Shown piece after piece: positions 12,567 to 20,311 of a stretch of DNA of 64,000 nt (position 1 is the stretch's first letter; every line of letters begins with the position of its first letter). The position numbers and the translations under genes were made by a program. Origin of the DNA: Bacteroidota bacterium (GTDB lineage Bacteria; Bacteroidota; Bacteroidia; 2-12-FULL-35-15); contig JAOQAG010000034.1 of the NCBI GenBank assembly GCA_025963715.1, forward strand, positions 1-64,000. The letters run 5' to 3'. Below the pieces are notes generated by a model. The model did no database searches. It was not told the DNA's origin and saw only the letters and a program-made list of their open reading frames with translations.

Positions 12567-13319
12567 CTAAATGTGATCCTTTAAATATTGAATAATGGTT
12601 GTTTTCCGGCGTCGGGAAACTTCAATTTCAGCATCTGCACCTTTCATGGTAATGTAGCATACGGTTCCTTTGCTATAATTTTTTAAATGATTGATATTGA
12701 TGATGGTACCTTTGTTTACCCTTAAAAAATTAGGGTAGGGCTTGAGTAATTCTTCGTAATCGGTGAGTGTTTTTGCCGACACCAGTTTTTGTCCGCTCAG
12801 CACCGAGATCTCGCAGTAGCCTCGCAATGCGTTTACGGAGCAAATATCGCTGATGTTTACCACATGCACTTTCCCGTTGTGATGCAGCGAGATGTTTTTG
12901 ATCAGCTGGTTCTTTTCGTCGAGCGAATCGATGAAATGGATAATGTGGTTGTCGTTTTTTTCCCTGACCCTGTCTTCGGCTCTTTTTACCGCCGAGATCA
13001 ATTTAGCATAATCGATCGGTTTTAAAATATAATCCACTGCGCTGAATTCAAATGCCTGTATGGCATACTGATCGAACCCGGAAATGAAGATCACATTAAA
13101 ATTTATTTTTTCGAACATGCGTAACAGGTCGAAGCCCGTTTTTACCGGCATTTTGATATCCAGGAACACGAGGTCGGGTTCTTTTTCAGTAATAAGCTGA
13201 TAGCCTTCGTCGGCAGACTCGGCAAAACCTACCACATCAATGCCCGGACAATGCAGGTTGAGCAGGCTGTTTAAAACATTGCGGTTGGCCGCTTCATCAT
13301 CAATTATTAAGACTTTCAT
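12567..13319 (-). CDS. LytTR-family response regulator
   Basis: This is a two-domain regulator. The receiver domain has the acidic pair (IIDDEAANR), the phosphoacceptor region LVFLDIKMPVKTGFD and the conserved Lys in YILKPIDYAKL. The LytTR DNA-binding domain ends with HLKNYSKGTVCYITMKG and ISRRRK-like residues (VSRRRKTTII). The ATG at 13319 gives 250 residues and begins directly with MKVLIIDDE. A longer frame to 13340 would overlap the kinase gene further. The gene overlaps the kinase stop by 20 bases, so the two are translationally coupled and form a pair. Confidence 0.92.
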   Translation of the reverse strand: MKVLIIDDEAANRNVLNSLLNLHCPGIDVVGFAESADEGYQLITEKEPDLVFLDIKMPVKTGFDLLRMFEKINFNVIFISGFDQYAIQAFEFSAVDYILKPIDYAKLISAVKRAEDRVREKNDNHIIHFIDSLDEKNQLIKNISLHHNGKVHVVNISDICSVNALRGYCEISVLSGQKLVSAKTLTDYEELLKPYPNFLRVNKGTIININHLKNYSKGTVCYITMKGADAEIEVSRRRKTTIIQYLKDHI

Positions 13320-16300
13320 TTTTGTTGTCATATAGTTCATCTAATACATTTAAAGGAAATAAGAGGTCAACGCGACTACCAGCCGGACTTCCATCGGCTG
13401 CCAGCAGGTCAATAAAACGGAACTCGCTTTTGTTTTGCGGATGCAGGCGGTTAAGGTTGGCAATACGGTTCATCACCAGCCACGTTCCTTTTGATTCTCT
13501 TTTATTAGGCTCCGCTCCCGGCATTATTTTCGGACGGCCCACGCCATTGTCGATCACCGAGATAATCAGCTTGCCTGCGGTGATCCTGATCTTTAAGATC
13601 AGCTTGGGAGTGCGCTCATTTTTAAGCGGCATCAATCCGTGCCAGATCGCGTTTTCAATTAAAGGTTGTGTGATCAGCGGCGGAATAAAAATTTCGTCGA
13701 GGCCGATGTCGTTACCAATCTGTTTCTCAAATATAAATTTGTTGCTGAACCTTAATCTTTCCAATTCAATGTTCAGGTCAACAATATCAAGCTCATTACG
13801 GAGGCAGGCGGCTGATTTATCGGAATAATTAAGGGTATACCGGATCAGGAAACTGAATTTAGCAATGTACTGATTGGCTTTATCGATGTTGTTTTCGAGG
13901 ATCAGCTGCTGGATTGCGGTAAGCGAATTGGAAATAAAATGCGGATTGATCTGTGCTTTTAATGCAGTTAAGCGCTGCTCGATGATCAGGCGGGTGATCA
14001 TTGTTTTGCGTTCCTGCTTTTTCTTGAGGCGGTCGTAAAAAAATCCGGTAAAAAAAACGCAGATCGCAATAACGGTCACAATTATTTCGAAAATAAATAA
14101 ATTGGTTTGCCAGAAAGCAGGCTTTATGTAAAACGGAATGTACAATACATTTTTTTTAATGCGGTTATCATCATCCCTCAAATACACATACAGGCGATAG
14201 TTGCCGGGCTGCAGATTTTGCAGGCGCAGCACATTCCCGGAAATTTTTCCTTTATCGCCGTAAGGCCCCTGCAGCTCATAAAAAAAAGAAGGATCTTTTT
14301 TTCCGTATTCCAAAATATTAAAATCAAAATAAAGATCGTTTTGTGAATAAGATAATTGCAGGTTCCGGCAATCTATTTTTTTATCATTTACCGTTACCGA
14401 CTCTAAATACAAAGGTGATGGAGTGGATGAGAATAACCTTTTTTTGCTCATTGCCACCAATCCCTGCTTGGTGGCAATGTACACTTTGTCTTTGTATTCT
14501 TCTGCAAACACAATTTCATTATCATACAGCAGGCGCCAGGATGAAGCAGCATCTATTACACTTTTGGTGGTTATAAAAAGCCCCTTATTGGTGGATAATA
14601 AAAAGGTAGTATCATCTACAAAGCTGATGTTATTTACTACGTTACTGGGTACATTTTTGATCCTGATCAGGTGATTGTTTTGGGTAAGCACATAGAGCCC
14701 GGCACCTTTTGTACCTATCCAGATATTTTTTTTCGAATCAACCTTTAAGTGTGTAATGTTTTTACCTTCCAACACTTTTAAGTAGTCGGGAATATACACC
14801 CGCTGATTAAATAAATATACCCCTTGTGGAGTGCCAATATAATGTTCGTTTGGGGAGCGATCAACAATGCTCCTTGTTTTAAACATGTTTTGAGGCCCCA
14901 AAAACAGGTTGGATTTATACTTTTTATAGATGCCCGCCGCGGTAATAAAAACTAGTGTGTCGTTTATTTCCCCTCCAAACCCGTATGGATTGCAGTATCC
15001 ATCCGGAACTATTCTTTCGAAGGGCTGGAAATATTTATCGACAAGAGTTAAATTTTCATCCAATATATGCCCCCCGTTTTTTGTACCGATCATATATTGA
15101 CCGTCATAAATGGTGGCATCCGTAATGTAAGAACCATTGTTGTTCATATCTATTTTTCGCAAGCTGTCGGATTCATTTACAAACAAGCTGCCGTTGCCTG
15201 TCCCGACAAATAATTTAGTACCTACTTTTTTTACCAGGCTTATGTTTCCTGATAGTTCAGGAATGTTATCGTAATAAGTGGTATAAATATCCTTGCAGTA
15301 ATAAATTCCTTTTTCGATGCTGGATACCCACATGCCGCCTTGTCTGTCAAATAATATATCTGAAATATTAAGGTTCTCAAAATAATAGTTCAGGATCTCC
15401 AGGTTTTCATTCAGCTCATACAATCCTTTGTTTGTACCTACCCATATATGTCCGTTCGGATCGCTTTCAAGATTAATGGTTGATTCATGAAATTTCGTTT
15501 TCTTTATCCTGCCTTGTCTATCGATGGAAATGAGCTCATACTTTGATAAAAAATAATACGTACCATTCATCTCCCTTAAATGATCCCGCTCAATTATTTC
15601 ACTATAGTATTTCTGTTTGACCTGCTGCTTGTTTTCCGAATCGATTATTTTAAAATAATTATTATCGATTACAGGATCATGTGTTTTTATAAAAGAATAT
15701 CTGTTCCCTACTTTTTTCAATAAGCCTTTTGAATCGACTAGCTTAAAATAATTATTCTTACTTACAGGGTCATGTGTTTTTATAAAAAAGTAGCTGTTCC
15801 CGATTTTTTTAAACACCACATTTACTGAATCTTCGTTATAAAAATCAGAAATTGGGATGATATTGCCCGATTTTTTTTCTAATTTATAGCTATTATCAAA
15901 GGTGGAGAAATAAAGGTTCAGCGAATCGTCTACCTGCATTTGATAGATCGTTTCATTGTTCAGGATGATTTTATAAGAAATTTTTTCTATTCCTTTCACA
16001 AGAAAAGCACTGTCGTTTTTTACCCGGTAAATGTGTGCTTTTGAATTGGCGATGTATATTTCTTTTCCCGGTGATTCACAAATGGCATACACGGTGGATT
16101 CTTCAAATGGCAGGTTTTTGCAAACGGGCACAAACCGCTTGCCGTTGTGCTTGACAATCCCGTATTCGGTAAAAGCCCACACATAGCCATTGGCATCCTG
16201 CAACAGATTATACACTTCGCTGGCAGGCAGGCCGTCTTCTGTTCCGAGGAGCTGAAATTTTAATTTCTGTGCTTTTGTTTCGGTCGCGAATAAACAACTG

Positions 16301-16344
16301 AAAGTCAGTAAAATGTTTATTAGAAACGGTTTAGCCTTTAGCAT
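13300..16344 (-). CDS. Propeller-type sensor histidine kinase (LytS-like)
   Basis: This 1014-residue sensor starts with a signal peptide (MLKAKPFLINILLTFSCLFA). A periplasmic two-component-regulator propeller follows, with repeats such as SDPNGHIWVGTNKGLYEL and VDSKKNIWIGTKGAGLYVL, then a Y_Y_Y domain, a transmembrane helix near residues 748-770, and a LytS-type kinase domain with the acceptor His at about residue 802 (NPHFISNSLTAIQQ) and an N box/GVGRP ATPase part. ATG 16344 is chosen over an upstream TTG at 16353. Residues 179-209 and 210-240 are a tandem duplication. It probably senses a surface or glycan ligand and signals to the LytTR partner. Confidence 0.9.
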   Translation of the reverse strand: MLKAKPFLINILLTFSCLFATETKAQKLKFQLLGTEDGLPASEVYNLLQDANGYVWAFTEYGIVKHNGKRFVPVCKNLPFEESTVYAICESPGKEIYIANSKAHIYRVKNDSAFLVKGIEKISYKIILNNETIYQMQVDDSLNLYFSTFDNSYKLEKKSGNIIPISDFYNEDSVNVVFKKIGNSYFFIKTHDPVSKNNYFKLVDSKGLLKKVGNRYSFIKTHDPVIDNNYFKIIDSENKQQVKQKYYSEIIERDHLREMNGTYYFLSKYELISIDRQGRIKKTKFHESTINLESDPNGHIWVGTNKGLYELNENLEILNYYFENLNISDILFDRQGGMWVSSIEKGIYYCKDIYTTYYDNIPELSGNISLVKKVGTKLFVGTGNGSLFVNESDSLRKIDMNNNGSYITDATIYDGQYMIGTKNGGHILDENLTLVDKYFQPFERIVPDGYCNPYGFGGEINDTLVFITAAGIYKKYKSNLFLGPQNMFKTRSIVDRSPNEHYIGTPQGVYLFNQRVYIPDYLKVLEGKNITHLKVDSKKNIWIGTKGAGLYVLTQNNHLIRIKNVPSNVVNNISFVDDTTFLLSTNKGLFITTKSVIDAASSWRLLYDNEIVFAEEYKDKVYIATKQGLVAMSKKRLFSSTPSPLYLESVTVNDKKIDCRNLQLSYSQNDLYFDFNILEYGKKDPSFFYELQGPYGDKGKISGNVLRLQNLQPGNYRLYVYLRDDDNRIKKNVLYIPFYIKPAFWQTNLFIFEIIVTVIAICVFFTGFFYDRLKKKQERKTMITRLIIEQRLTALKAQINPHFISNSLTAIQQLILENNIDKANQYIAKFSFLIRYTLNYSDKSAACLRNELDIVDLNIELERLRFSNKFIFEKQIGNDIGLDEIFIPPLITQPLIENAIWHGLMPLKNERTPKLILKIRITAGKLIISVIDNGVGRPKIMPGAEPNKRESKGTWLVMNRIANLNRLHPQNKSEFRFIDLLAADGSPAGSRVDLLFPLNVLDELYDNKNESLNN
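15625..15810. repeat. In-frame 93-bp tandem duplication in the sensor kinase
   Basis: Units 15718-15810 and 15625-15717 each encode 31 residues and share the words KK[IV]GN, FIKTHDPV and NNYFK. The duplication is in frame, lies in the sensor propeller, and has diverged by roughly a third at protein level. Confidence 0.9.
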
Positions 16345-16350
16345 ATCAAA

Positions 16351-16358
16351 CAAAAATA
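16351..16358 (-). promoter_or_regulatory. -7 element immediately upstream of the sensor kinase
   Basis: Minus-strand TATTTTTG fits TAnnTTTG and ends six bases before the ATG at 16344, so transcription would start at or almost at the start codon. It is supported by the motif only. Confidence 0.35.
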
Positions 16359-16396: not shown

Positions 16397-16421
16397 TGTG
16401 CAGAAAACCTATCCAATGGTG
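16397..16421. promoter_or_regulatory. Candidate operator, AAAACC-n-AATGG copy 1
   Basis: TGTGCAGAAAACCTATCCAA resembles the element that recurs at 16465-16490 and 19211-19237 (TGTGCTGAAAACC..CGAACGG). It lies in the intergenic region between the kinase gene and the secreted-protein gene. Confidence 0.35.
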
Positions 16422-16464: not shown

Positions 16465-16593
16465 TGTGCTGAAAACCGCGCGAACGGTGGAGCGAAATAT
16501 AATTATCCTGCAGACATTTGTAGCGTTACAAAAAAACTATTTCAATTAAAATAGCGGGTGCCGAAAAGCTTTGATAGAGTAGGCGGGAAAAAA
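16465..16593 (+). promoter_or_regulatory. Conserved upstream region and leader, copy A
   Basis: This region matches 19211-19342 in order and spacing: TGTGCTGAAAACC..CGAACGG (16465-16490), then CATTTGTA (16515-16522, a near-match to the -7 box), then the leader core GGGTGCCGAAAAGCTTTGAT and AGAGTAGGCGGGAAAAAAA (16554-16593), just before the ATG of the secreted protein. The core differs from copy B at only a few positions. It could be a shared promoter plus an RNA leader or protein-binding site. Confidence 0.7.
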
Positions 16594-16603
16594 ATTCAAA
16601 TAA

Positions 16604-19084
16604 ATGATCATGAAAAAACAATTAAAAAAAATCTTCCTGGGAACATTGTTGCTCCTCGGGAGTATTTCGGGAAAAGCACAAACGCAATTAAGCAAATGGC
16701 AGGTTAATACCTCGGACTATATTAGCTTTACAAGTTCAACGCCTGCTTATTCAGGGCCGAATACGTTTCCTCTGAATGTCGTATACAACAGTATTTCAGA
16801 CAATGCAGGCAATATTATTTTTTCGGTTATAGGCCAGTCTGTTAGAAATGCAGCCGGTACGGTGATCGGTACACTTCCTATTTTGTATAGAAATACAGAA
16901 ATTGCAATTGTTCCTAATCCGGGAAATTTTACTAATGCCTGCCAGAAAAAATATTATATCATATATCCACGTAAGAATGTCGACACAGAGGGTGGATATA
17001 TGGCGTATGCGGAAGTGGATATGAATGCCGCTTCAGGAGCAGGAACTTTAACACTTGTCACTTCCAATATTGGTGTTGTTACCAATCCTGTAAACCCAAT
17101 GGCAGTGAGCCGTGTGAATGCTAATGGCAAACGTTATCTTTATTTTTTAAGCGGTAGTCAGTATAATATCAGCATCTGCGAAATTTCTGCAACGGCAATT
17201 ACACCTTTGAATACTTCTGCTTATACGGTTGCAGGAAATGTTACACAATGTAATGAAATGGAACTTTCAAATGCCGGTGATAAGCTGGCTTTTATAAACA
17301 CCGCCGGCGCTTTGGGGAAATATGTTATTGTGGTACCCATCAATCCGGCAACCGGTTTAAGTTCCGGATCACCTTCCAGCATAACCGTAACGGGAAATGT
17401 AAACGGGCTTGAGTTTGATGCTTCGGGCAACAAGCTTTTTTTCTCTAAACCGGGCAGCGGCGTTTATGTTGAAGACCTGAGCACTTCTGCTGTAACTGCT
17501 ATAACAGGTACAACAGCTTTTGGCTCGGGAATGCTTGAAAAAACATTCAGTGGAAGTACCCAATACATTGCCTGCGCTTCAGCCACAGGCCTGGTTGGCT
17601 TTATTGACCCTTCTACAGCAACACTTAACAGCAGCCTTAATATCAGTTACCAGCTATCCAACAATATGGACCCGGGTTATACTATTGTGCTTATGCCGGA
17701 CCAAATTGATGGTGAAAATTATGCTTCCGTTGCAACAATATTGTTTCCTTCGTTTACAGTGCCCGCGTCCATCTGTTCAGGTAACCTCATTACTGTTAAT
17801 GGCTTAGCCAGTTATGGTACCATCAATGGAAATGTGGTAACTTCACCAAGCCCAATCGGCAGTTACACGTGGACATTGGTTGAAAGCAATGCAGCCGGTA
17901 CCCCGGTAACAGGTGCAACGGTATGGTCAAGCCCTGCTTACACAGGCGCACCGGGTTATTTTACCTTTCCGGATGTATCAGCCGGTGGGCCAACTATCAG
18001 TTGCGGAAAATACTATTGTATAAAGATTAGGTTAATGAACTCCTGTATAATCGGGATTGAAACACAACACGTTGTTTATGTTAATTGTTTGCCTACAGTA
18101 ACATTAACCGGTTCTTCACAGTATATCTGCAATGGCAGTTCGGGCACACTGGCGGCAAGTATTAATAGCCCGGATCCCGGCCATACTTACACGCTTACAT
18201 GGACGTATATTACAATTCACCATGGCCTTGAGCTTATGACTACTCTTTATTCAGGTGCGCCGGGCTCTGTAAATGTATCACCAACTACCAACACTACTTA
18301 TTATGGCACAATAACGGATAATGTTACCGGTTGCTCAACTTCCTTTACCTGGACAGTAAATATAGTGAATGATAATCCGTCATTCAGTATTTCTACAAAC
18401 ACTGCAGATACGAATTATTACACAATAACTGCCACAGCAAATGATCTGTCACAGTTTTCTTTACCCGGCTTTAATTACATTCATTTAATAGAAGAACTGG
18501 ACGGATCGGGCAATCCACTTTATCCGGCAGAGTGGCCGGGCGGCCCGTGGCTGACAGGTGCCACCCAACATTTTGCGGGATTTGTAGGCTTGGCAATAAC
18601 CCCATTTTATTCCCAGGATCCGGCTGGGACCTATCCTGCTCAGGGTCAGTTCCTGTACTTTCACACCTACAGGATCACCAGGGGAGTATTGGATGATTAT
18701 TGCAGTTACAGACAAACTTCAGTCACGATTACTACAGCTAAAAGCCTTGAAGATGGTAAACCAACAATAATAATTACGGAAGATAAAAATGCTCCTGATT
18801 ACAGTTATTTGATGACTAATCATACTGCGGCTGTTGCTCCTGTAATTAATAATGATGAATTGAATGTTTATCCAAATCCCGGTACAGGCGTATTTACTAT
18901 TGAAACAAATTCAGCTGATAAATCCAGCATCGAAATTTACGATGTGCTTGGCAACAGAGTAAAAGCATTTGAACAAAACGGATTTAAATCAACGGTTGAT
19001 CTGTCCGGTTATCCAAAAGGAATGTACATGATCAATGTAATTACCAATGGAAAAAAAGTAAGCAAAAAAATTATCCTTGAATAA
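16604..19084 (+). CDS. Large secreted protein with T9SS type A sorting domain
   Basis: This 826-residue protein starts with a signal peptide (KKIFLGTLLLLGSISGKAQ). An N-terminal propeller-like region (residues about 40-370) is followed by Ig/PKD-like beta segments with paired cysteines (ICNGSSGTLAASI; TTYYGTITDNVTGCS). The last 75 residues form a type A T9SS C-terminal signal: LNVYPNPGTGVFTIET, IEIYDVLGNRV and YPKGMYMINVITNGKKVSKK. The product should be exported by T9SS and attached or released at the surface; its ligand is unknown. A second Met two codons in is an equally good start. It has the shared leader upstream and a terminator downstream. Confidence 0.85.
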   Translation: MIMKKQLKKIFLGTLLLLGSISGKAQTQLSKWQVNTSDYISFTSSTPAYSGPNTFPLNVVYNSISDNAGNIIFSVIGQSVRNAAGTVIGTLPILYRNTEIAIVPNPGNFTNACQKKYYIIYPRKNVDTEGGYMAYAEVDMNAASGAGTLTLVTSNIGVVTNPVNPMAVSRVNANGKRYLYFLSGSQYNISICEISATAITPLNTSAYTVAGNVTQCNEMELSNAGDKLAFINTAGALGKYVIVVPINPATGLSSGSPSSITVTGNVNGLEFDASGNKLFFSKPGSGVYVEDLSTSAVTAITGTTAFGSGMLEKTFSGSTQYIACASATGLVGFIDPSTATLNSSLNISYQLSNNMDPGYTIVLMPDQIDGENYASVATILFPSFTVPASICSGNLITVNGLASYGTINGNVVTSPSPIGSYTWTLVESNAAGTPVTGATVWSSPAYTGAPGYFTFPDVSAGGPTISCGKYYCIKIRLMNSCIIGIETQHVVYVNCLPTVTLTGSSQYICNGSSGTLAASINSPDPGHTYTLTWTYITIHHGLELMTTLYSGAPGSVNVSPTTNTTYYGTITDNVTGCSTSFTWTVNIVNDNPSFSISTNTADTNYYTITATANDLSQFSLPGFNYIHLIEELDGSGNPLYPAEWPGGPWLTGATQHFAGFVGLAITPFYSQDPAGTYPAQGQFLYFHTYRITRGVLDDYCSYRQTSVTITTAKSLEDGKPTIIITEDKNAPDYSYLMTNHTAAVAPVINNDELNVYPNPGTGVFTIETNSADKSSIEIYDVLGNRVKAFEQNGFKSTVDLSGYPKGMYMINVITNGKKVSKKIILE

Positions 19085-19105
19085 TTTTAATTGTTACTGA
19101 ACAAT

Positions 19106-19140
19106 AAAAAGGCTATCGGAAACGGTAGCCTTTTTGTTTT
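19106..19140 (+). terminator. Terminator after the T9SS cargo gene
   Basis: AAAAAGGCTATCG, loop GAAA, CGGTAGCCTTTTT, followed by GTTTT. It lies 22 bases after the stop codon. Confidence 0.85.
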
Positions 19141-19210
19141 AATAATTTGTGCAATGTTTTTCACACCTATTACTATTGTTGAGATTCCGGCAATTGTTAA
19201 AAAGCGAATT

Positions 19211-19342
19211 TGTGCTAAAAACCTTTCGAACGGCACAGAAATATTTAATAATCATCTTCACATTTGTAAAAGTAACTTTAACACTACTCCGTTAAAACAA
19301 AAGCGGATGCCGAAAAGCTTTGACAGAGTAAGCAGAAAAAAA
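19211..19342 (+). promoter_or_regulatory. Conserved upstream region and leader, copy B
   Basis: This is the second copy of the module at 16465-16593: TGTGCTAAAAACC..CGAACGG (19211-19237), CATTTGTA (19261-19268) and the leader core GGATGCCGAAAAGCTTTGAC then AGAGTAAGCAGAAAAAAA (about 19304-19342). It ends six bases before the ATG of the lipoprotein gene. Confidence 0.7.
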
Positions 19343-19348
19343 CAAGTT

Positions 19349-20311
19349 ATGAAAACAAACAAATTAAAAATTGCTGTTGTATTGTCAGCAGCATGCGCAA
19401 TGACATTCTCTGCGTGCAAAAAAGAAAACATGGAGCCAATGTCCAACAATCCTGCAAATGAAAAACGTCCTTTGCATTTTTCGTTTGAGATCCGTTCCAA
19501 TGAAGGCTTTCGCCAGGGAATTGAAGATCCGGGTTTCACTGTTATTAACCGGAACACGTATGGAGCTTCCTTCATTGGAGAAGTTCACTTAAGTGTACAC
19601 GGTGAACTTAACAGTATGTATCCAAGCGGAATGAACGGGTACGGACAATCCCCGGAAGTAGGCATTACCGCTATTACGTATAACGAAATAAGTACACATT
19701 ACCCGATGATTTATTTTACTGCGCACCCAACTTCCGGTGTTACCGGAAATTCGTTCAGGATCCAGTACAGCGGTTTCGACATGAATGTGGATGAGATAGA
19801 AGTAAACCCGGATGATAGCCAGGTGTATGCATTGGCAACTTATGGCAGCACAAAAGCGCTGTACAAATTAGTGCCGAATACCACAACCGGAATTGCAGAT
19901 GCAACCTGGATGGGGGAATTGTTCCATAACTTTGCGGTCAATGGTTATATTGGCGGTTCTATTGCATTTGTGCAGGATCAAACAACTGCTGCATGGCATT
20001 TATCATTCACAAGTGAATCAACGGTGTATTCTACACTCGGTATTGTTCAATGGAATTATACAGTAGGAACATCTTCTATCGCTTCTGATGCAACGGCGCA
20101 TCCAAACTGTTATTACGCCAGCGGAATTGCCAATGCAGGAACCGGAAATATAAATACAGTGGCTTTTAACGGTGATGTTTATTTTGCAAGGGATAATGAA
20201 ACATTGTACAAATTTGTTCCTGCTTCAGGAGGCGGATCAAGTACGGTAACGTCCATCGGAAGCATCTCAGCGTCGCATGATTTTGGCCCTGATACGGAAA
20301 TTTCTTTTTAA
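19349..20311 (+). CDS. Lipoprotein of unknown function co-regulated with the T9SS cargo
   Basis: This 320-residue protein begins MKTNKLKIAVVLSAACAMTF and has a lipobox ending at Cys23 (FSACKKE). The start at 19349 is preferred over the open frame from 19091 because that extension would cross a terminator and the conserved leader. The mature part looks like a beta-propeller with short blades (VDEIEVNPDDSQVYALATYG; NTVAFNGDVYFARDNETLY). No family was recognised. The same upstream module as the gene at 16604 suggests joint control. Confidence 0.75.
   Translation: MKTNKLKIAVVLSAACAMTFSACKKENMEPMSNNPANEKRPLHFSFEIRSNEGFRQGIEDPGFTVINRNTYGASFIGEVHLSVHGELNSMYPSGMNGYGQSPEVGITAITYNEISTHYPMIYFTAHPTSGVTGNSFRIQYSGFDMNVDEIEVNPDDSQVYALATYGSTKALYKLVPNTTTGIADATWMGELFHNFAVNGYIGGSIAFVQDQTTAAWHLSFTSESTVYSTLGIVQWNYTVGTSSIASDATAHPNCYYASGIANAGTGNINTVAFNGDVYFARDNETLYKFVPASGGGSSTVTSIGSISASHDFGPDTEISF

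Follow-up and report, generated by a model that had tools for sequence, protein, structure and literature searches.

Two neighbouring genes in a 64,000-nucleotide stretch of a Bacteroidota genome (GCA_025963715.1, contig JAOQAG010000034.1, positions 1 to 64,000; hereafter the window) are preceded by similar leader regions, each of which carries a copy of a small RNA element, DUF805b RNA. In the list of open reading frames (ORFs), the first gene (16604..19084, + strand) encodes a type IX secretion system (T9SS) cargo protein of 826 amino acids and the second (19349..20311, + strand) a lipoprotein-like protein of 320 amino acids. A preliminary description of this DNA had called the products a T9SS cargo and a lipoprotein. 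The former assignment is upheld by PF18962 (E 9.5e-16); the latter agrees with a lipoprotein-type signal (...TFSACKK) read by eye, but the protein has no Pfam match at E<=0.01. BLASTP detects no homology between the two proteins (best E 0.64).

The same description had proposed that the two leaders match in three blocks and have diverged between them, and both points are borne out. The blocks lie where they had been placed, with TGTGC..AAAACC starting at 16465 in copy A and 19211 in copy B, CGAACGG at 16481 and 19227, CATTTGTA at 16515 and 19261, GCCGAAAAGC at 16560 and 19309, and AGAGTA at 16576 and 19325; the leader core common to both reads GCCGAAAAGCTTTGA.AGAGTA. Measured from start to start, the upstream block and CATTTGTA are 50 bases apart in both leaders, and CATTTGTA and the core are 45 and 48 bases apart. 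Local alignment of the two upstream regions scores 78, whereas the highest score among 1000 dinucleotide-preserving shuffles is 31, and the columns between the blocks are near or at chance (18 of 31 identical in one stretch, which 23 of 500 shuffles equalled, and 18 of 34 in the other, which 302 of 500 equalled).

According to an excerpt of PMC9723704, the -7 box of Bacteroidota occupies -12 to -5. Putative boxes of the consensus TAnnTTTG, located by their distance from the upstream block, are present on the + strand at 16513..16520 (GACATTTG, copy A) and 19259..19266 (CACATTTG, copy B). If these are set at -12 to -5, the predicted transcription starts fall at about 16525 and 19271 and precede the DUF805b RNA by 26 bases in copy A and 29 in copy B. 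As had been supposed, the core behaves as leader RNA, placed after the predicted transcription start. The leaders do not represent one promoter/leader module, as had also been supposed, because the DNA block and the RNA core each occur without the other as well.

DUF805b RNA and its crossing helix

Although the core had first been taken for an unrecognised leader, it matches a known family. By their Rfam matches, both cores are members of DUF805b RNA (RF02914, clan CL00115), a cis-regulatory family of unexplained function. Copy A (16551..16585, + strand) scores 40.5 bits and copy B (19300..19334, + strand) 45.2 bits, where the gathering threshold is 35.6 bits. Both align over all 35 model positions, and these two copies are the only Rfam matches above gathering within the window. 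The outer hairpin P1 and the conserved GAAAA and AGAGUA stretches of RF02914 are present in both copies, as taken from the cmscan alignment for copy B and as read from the sequence for copy A. In copy A, P1 consists of three contiguous pairs (AGC 16553-16555 with GCT 16568-16570) and the second helix, P2, joins GCC 16560-16562 to GGC 16582-16584. In copy B, P1 joins AAAGC 19300-19304 to GCTTT 19317-19321, and P2 joins GCC 19309-19311 to AGC 19331-19333 with two pairs out of three and one more pair, T-A, beyond them. The ATG codons of the ORFs that follow (16604 and 19349) lie 19 and 15 bases after P2.

P2 crosses P1. The structure line that cmscan prints for RF02914 contains the outer hairpin only, and cmscan output shows nested pairs only, whereas here a second, crossing helix emerges. 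For this analysis, P1, P2 and the loops were parsed in 75 of the 87 genus-search matches (the other 12 rows were unused), in one further copy of the own genome (C7:204805) and in the top match from 29 other genomes of the phylum, one per genome and thus the best scorers out of 121 non-own rows; this gave 101 distinct cores. Another 33 copies came from scanning public genomes with a pattern whose P2 letters are fixed, and for this reason they entered only the analyses of distances and genes.

The covariance analysis that had been proposed for the core shows strong covariation of P2. The three bases before GAAAA are complementary to the three after GAGTA in 89 of the 101 distinct cores (29/29 from the phylum and 60/72 from the genus), while shuffling the partners, which ignores kinship, yields a mean of 43.5 and a maximum of 58 in 10,000 trials, and sliding the partner by one to three bases leaves 0-4 cores paired. 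Five fully complementary combinations are each seen at least seven times: GCC/GGC (35), TCC/GGA (15), GCT/AGC (10), ACC/GGT (7) and CCC/GGG (7). P1 reaches three pairs in 97 of the 101 cores, mostly with three to five pairs, and the loops are strongly conserved, with GAAAA in 98 and an A before GAGTA in 91. Because strong covariation supports the second, crossing helix, DUF805b is, as judged from comparative sequence evidence, an H-type pseudoknot of about 33-35 bases with two crossing helices. The covariation also implies that the core acts as RNA.

The matches of a sister family in the same clan, DUF805 RNA (RF03081), include the DUF805b core and have about 30 extra bases on the 5' side (68 model positions versus 35). 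One DUF805 copy of the own genome (locus L068, 8776-8842, contig C7) scores 58.5 bits and precedes a gene of 150 amino acids.

Distribution and placement of DUF805b RNA

The preliminary description had held that its proposal would be refuted by a lack of further copies in the genome and of conservation of the core in orthologous upstream regions; further copies were found both in the genome and across the phylum. The own genome contains eight DUF805b copies over gathering, two more at E<=1e-5 and one at E 0.0011 (C7:204805), the last of which belongs to the longer DUF805 family, and all 11 stand before an ORF. Exact core words by themselves say little, as they match the own genome 26 times with up to two mismatches against 15 for the reversed pattern. 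Within the genus, DUF805b is present in 28 of 36 genomes at E<=1e-5 and in 20 of 36 over gathering, and within the phylum sample in 56 of 296 genomes at E<=1e-8 (own genome included throughout), with no match at that threshold in 14 control genomes. In one congener, three copies lie within about 5 kb of a single contig (L130, G025:C132). Among the 33 pattern-scan copies, one falls in an Omnitrophota record before an RsmH-like gene and is probably a chance match.

The distance from the end of P2 to the start codon is narrow, with a median of 22 bases and quartiles of 20-24 among the 136 copies with an ORF (of 138); in 117 of the 136 it is 15-27 bases. The spacer is 58% A and 4% G, and a terminator-like T-run (TTTTT) occurs in just 3 of 129 spacers. 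Upstream of the element, TTTG is commonest 20-39 bases before DUF805b (23 and 25 per ten-base bin versus 8-18 elsewhere, 135 copies); TTTG forms the core of the Bacteroidota -7 box. Perfect complementarity was sought between the core and its surroundings, and the longest pairing averages 7.11 with the 80 downstream bases (7.00 when shuffled, n=100) and 6.23 with the 40 upstream bases (6.32 when shuffled, n=100). Thus, there is no sign of a competing structure, and no riboswitch expression platform, be it a competing pairing or a terminator, was found by this search, in which perfect complementarity alone is detectable.

The genes led by DUF805b are diverse. The family scans excluded eight of the 136 led ORFs, which were repeats, had fewer than 40 amino acids or started more than 60 bases off, and the remaining 128 proteins hit 53 Pfam families, each with at most three members apart from the T9SS tail (17/128). 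These families include rhodopsins, DUF2589 and lectin-like domains, NCBIfam adds a few led proteins resembling bacteriocins or ribosomally synthesized and post-translationally modified peptides (RiPPs), and no shared pathway is apparent among the first 25 families of each tally. Several short led ORFs (L189, L198, L215, L132, L098, L100 and others) resemble, by eye, bacteriocin or RiPP precursors with GG leaders, and NCBIfam matches of short led ORFs comprise leader_Chryseo, microviridin and fulvocin-related entries.

A role specific to secretion was considered and rejected. By a crude signal-peptide rule, 52 of 91 led proteins of at least 120 amino acids look exported versus 56 of 132 flanking ORFs of the own genome, which is a small difference, and the own genome has at least 150 T9SS tails, whereas 17 of the 128 led proteins carry one. 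The viral genes described below do not fit such a role either; the supposed tie of the core to secreted-protein genes is broken by viral copies that precede ParB-like and regulatory genes.

In viral contigs, exact patterns located DUF805b in at least 141 stretches, 21 with the P2 type TCC/GGA and at least 120 with GCC/GGC, and a narrower P2-type pattern gave no match there; these collection scans are bare counts without a chance expectation. P1 has at least three pairs in 103 of the first 104 matches (loci L270-L370), although the patterns fix one P1 base. A structure scan of the 141 loci (1.20 Mb), which had been picked for the motif, returns 149 matches and none in the reversed sequence, and all 12 loci chosen for an Rfam search give a match. 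The start codon, which had no part in the choice of loci, lies 18-23 bases beyond the element in 98 of 123 cases. After proteins sharing their first 60 residues were merged, 106 viral led proteins were kept; 35 of these have a ParB-like PHROG match, some being mutually related, and others are a few helix-turn-helix regulators, one HU-like protein and one DNA methylase.

The viral copies often directly follow another gene. Counted over non-identical copies that have an ORF and at least 300 bases of flank, 53 of 96 viral copies lie within 20 bases of the end of a preceding same-strand gene and 61 of 96 within 50 bases; among bacterial copies, such a gene lies within 50 bases in 18 of 120 (10/67, 5/27 and 3/26 in the three sets). 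DUF805b therefore stands inside gene clusters too. A named example is Flavobacterium phage morran9-1, in which the element (12838-12872, 52.1 bits with RF02914) begins 4 bases after gp39 (ending at 12833) and ends 20 bases before the ParB-like gp40 (starting at 12893). The phage record gives Flavobacterium sp. LMO9 as host, and this strain is named in a paper on Baltic Sea Flavobacterium phages (PMC7077304).

Other features of the phage sequences are recorded here as observations. In two viral loci (L272 1282-1390 and L278 1104-1212), DUF805b begins 5 bases past a same-strand tRNA gene and precedes a small gene, and it is possible that tRNA 3' processing creates the 5' end of the small-gene mRNA. 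Another locus has three copies within 1.1 kb (L318 6058-7152). Permuted transfer-messenger RNA matches above the Rfam gathering threshold occur in two DUF805b-bearing viral loci (L304 5512-5670 and L346 8939-9158), and a Pistol ribozyme (65.6 bits, above gathering) lies between gp005 and gp006 of Tenacibaculum phage Gundel_1 (L412 2564-2642).

A possible action on translation initiation

What has been computed is the assignment to the family, the crossing helix, the tight spacing to AUG, the presence in Bacteroidota and viral contigs, and the frequent position right behind the preceding gene in viral contigs; an effect on translation initiation is what these results most likely reflect. The distance to AUG and the place behind preceding genes suggest an action on the next start codon, and the viral copies directly behind a preceding gene indicate translation initiation rather than transcription or secretion. 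Bacteroidota retain an anti-Shine-Dalgarno sequence, yet their ribosomes, in which it is hidden, fail to recognise the Shine-Dalgarno (SD) sequence, as stated in an excerpt of PMC9976891. Therefore, an RNA fold that meets the margin of the 30S footprint could serve to recruit the subunit, slow it or license it.

We favour, with moderate confidence, the view that the DUF805b pseudoknot acts on translation initiation of the next gene; in the window, an independent upstream block, probably an activator site, is added. The pseudoknot, ending about 20 bases before AUG and near the upstream edge of the 30S subunit, would form a structured landing or checking site at which the subunit could be recruited, slowed or licensed. 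The two window genes would then be served in turn by a DNA block of 24 bases (roughly -60 to -37), a TAnnTTTG-like box at a fixed distance and the DUF805b RNA, whereas phages would use the element to tune single genes such as the ParB-like ones. Whether DUF805b is more specifically an SD-independent initiation pseudoknot that recruits or licenses 30S in both host and polycistronic phage mRNAs is a more tentative proposition, to which we give a little less than even credence.

Several points weigh against this view. Nested folding of the window leaders is no better than that of shuffles (z 0.78 and -1.12), and covariation is the sole support for the fold, nested minimum-energy folds being without the pseudoknot. 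Twelve of the 101 cores miss at least one P2 pair, including the GCC with AGC of copy B, and the P2 shuffle statistics take no account of how the cores are related. At E<=1e-8, 240 of the 296 phylum genomes have no DUF805b match, so the element is not part of the general initiation machinery. Since the viral loci were picked for the motif, their 149 matches are no measure of enrichment, and since short intergenic distances are usual in phages, the viral placement is partly expected. The element was found in one of four named Bacteroidota phages examined, being absent from phi39:1, CRP5 and the first 50 kb of Gundel_1.

It is also possible, though we consider it clearly less probable than an action on initiation as such, that DUF805b is a regulated switch, whose pseudoknot gains stability by binding a small molecule or an RNA-binding protein, so that translation of accessory and exported-protein genes is turned on or off. 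The conserved loops could act as a pocket for binding, nested energies indicate a weak fold, and the led genes are diverse and accessory-looking, as with a second-messenger riboswitch. Set against these are the led genes without a common pathway, the viral copies before ParB-like genes and within gene clusters, and the lack of excess complementarity upstream or downstream of the core, which rules against a switch with a competing structure. The small H-type pseudoknot riboswitches of the preQ1-I type are generally described as having the same size, topology and place just before the start codon; DUF805b differs from them in that neither a competing structure nor a common downstream pathway was found.

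For action on initiation, a close comparison is autoregulation of bS21/rpsU through an extended SD, which in the excerpt of PMC9976891 likewise involves a special mRNA feature before the start codon and ribosomes that ignore the SD. There, the feature pairs with 16S rRNA, whereas DUF805b is a folded element about 20-55 bases upstream. Because Bacteroidota ribosomes fail to recognise the SD, the question arises of how they come to favour particular messages, and a tiny covarying pseudoknot near AUG, shared by host accessory genes and phages, makes that question testable. A direct test system is provided by Flavobacterium phage morran9-1 and its host strain LMO9, and DUF805b could serve as a compact expression part for Bacteroidota.

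DUF805b as an Rfam family is already known. The literature searched yielded no study of DUF805b RNA, and with respect to it three features are new: the helix that crosses P1, the intergenic copies in viral contigs, and the promoter block as an element of its own. Weinberg et al. 2017 is reportedly the source of the family and may contain an earlier mention of these features. In an excerpt of PMC7682815, RF02914 is named once, in a list of data-set families.

The upstream DNA block

The upstream block follows the pattern TGTGC-N2-AAAACC-N6-ACGGT and occupies 16465..16488 in copy A, which places it roughly between -60 and -37 relative to the predicted transcription start, and 19211..19234 in copy B, both on the + strand. 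A pattern search reveals a third copy with one mismatch, overlooked before, at 16397..16420 (+ strand, TGTGCAGAAAACCTATCCAATGGT). It lies between the T9SS gene and a divergent sensor kinase gene (13300..16353, - strand, Reg_prop and His_kinase, starting with TTG at 16353 or ATG at 16344), beyond which is a LytTR response regulator gene (12567..13340, - strand, Response_reg and LytTR domains).

With up to three mismatches, the block matches the own genome ten times and the reversed control not at all, and the first ORF is a signal-peptide gene, by eye, at eight of these ten sites (the exceptions being C16:88928 and C23:47203). The other 35 genomes of the genus show no excess at the same tolerance (14 matches versus 15 for the control), and a stricter pattern finds nothing in the other 295 genomes of the phylum sample. 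When the block was searched together with a TTTG box, allowing total lengths of 44-62 bases, these 35 genomes gave four matches versus two for the control; three of the four (G013, G014 and G034) have the length seen in the own genome and, by eye, precede signal-peptide genes. Over all 36 genomes, the length from TGTG to TTTG is 55-56 bases in seven of eight matches (control two), namely in every one of the four own-genome matches and in three of the other four, and the eighth (G006) has 54 bases. By eye, several near-matches also have TTTG or TTTA at the same distance from the block. The fixed distance between block and TTTG implies that part of the module is a DNA element.

DUF805b follows the block in both window copies and at C1:59547 (three mismatches), G007:C167 and G013:C6, and is missing behind it at C1:56766, C10:34177, C16:332247 and C24:166. 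From its sequence pattern, the block is a DNA element separate from DUF805b and clear only in this genome, where it is probably an activator site for a few genes, mostly of secreted proteins.

It is unlikely that the block is the site of the neighbouring LytTR response regulator. The copy at 16397 does sit between the T9SS gene and the kinase gene; of seven block loci in the own genome, three (C1, C16:88928 and C42) have one of its 19 LytTR genes no more than about 6.5 kb away, and a congener shows a like neighbourhood among the matches listed (G034:C8). However, four of the seven loci have no nearby LytTR gene, the LytTR proteins adjoining blocks are scattered over the tree, as seen without a formal clade test, and the block does not fit the spacing commonly given for LytTR repeats. 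The neighbourhood is thus suggestive and the tree unsupportive, and the regulator stays a weak rival as block binder.

It is slightly less likely still that the leaders are alike through recent tandem duplication only. In favour of it, the two genes are adjacent, with block, box and core in the same order and at near-equal spacing; on the other side, the DNA between the blocks is near or at chance, BLASTP shows no relation between the downstream proteins, and every part is also met by itself at other sites. The leader may have been duplicated, yet its blocks have since been retained, and duplication and function do not compete as readings. Least probable by far is that the module is DNA only, with the blocks as promoter and regulator sites and the core as a DNA-binding site: the upstream block does keep a fixed distance to the TTTG box, but for the core this reading is largely contradicted, as it covaries as RNA pairs, lies after the predicted start site at a nearly constant distance from the start codon and, in viral contigs, often abuts the preceding gene so closely that no promoter would fit between them.

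One block site of the own genome without a signal-peptide gene has an arrangement of its own. At L061 10929-11060 (G000:C16:88928-89060), a strong hairpin with a T-run lies about 30 bases downstream of a perfect block and a TACCTTTG box, and this combination may drive a short RNA of about 60-70 bases.

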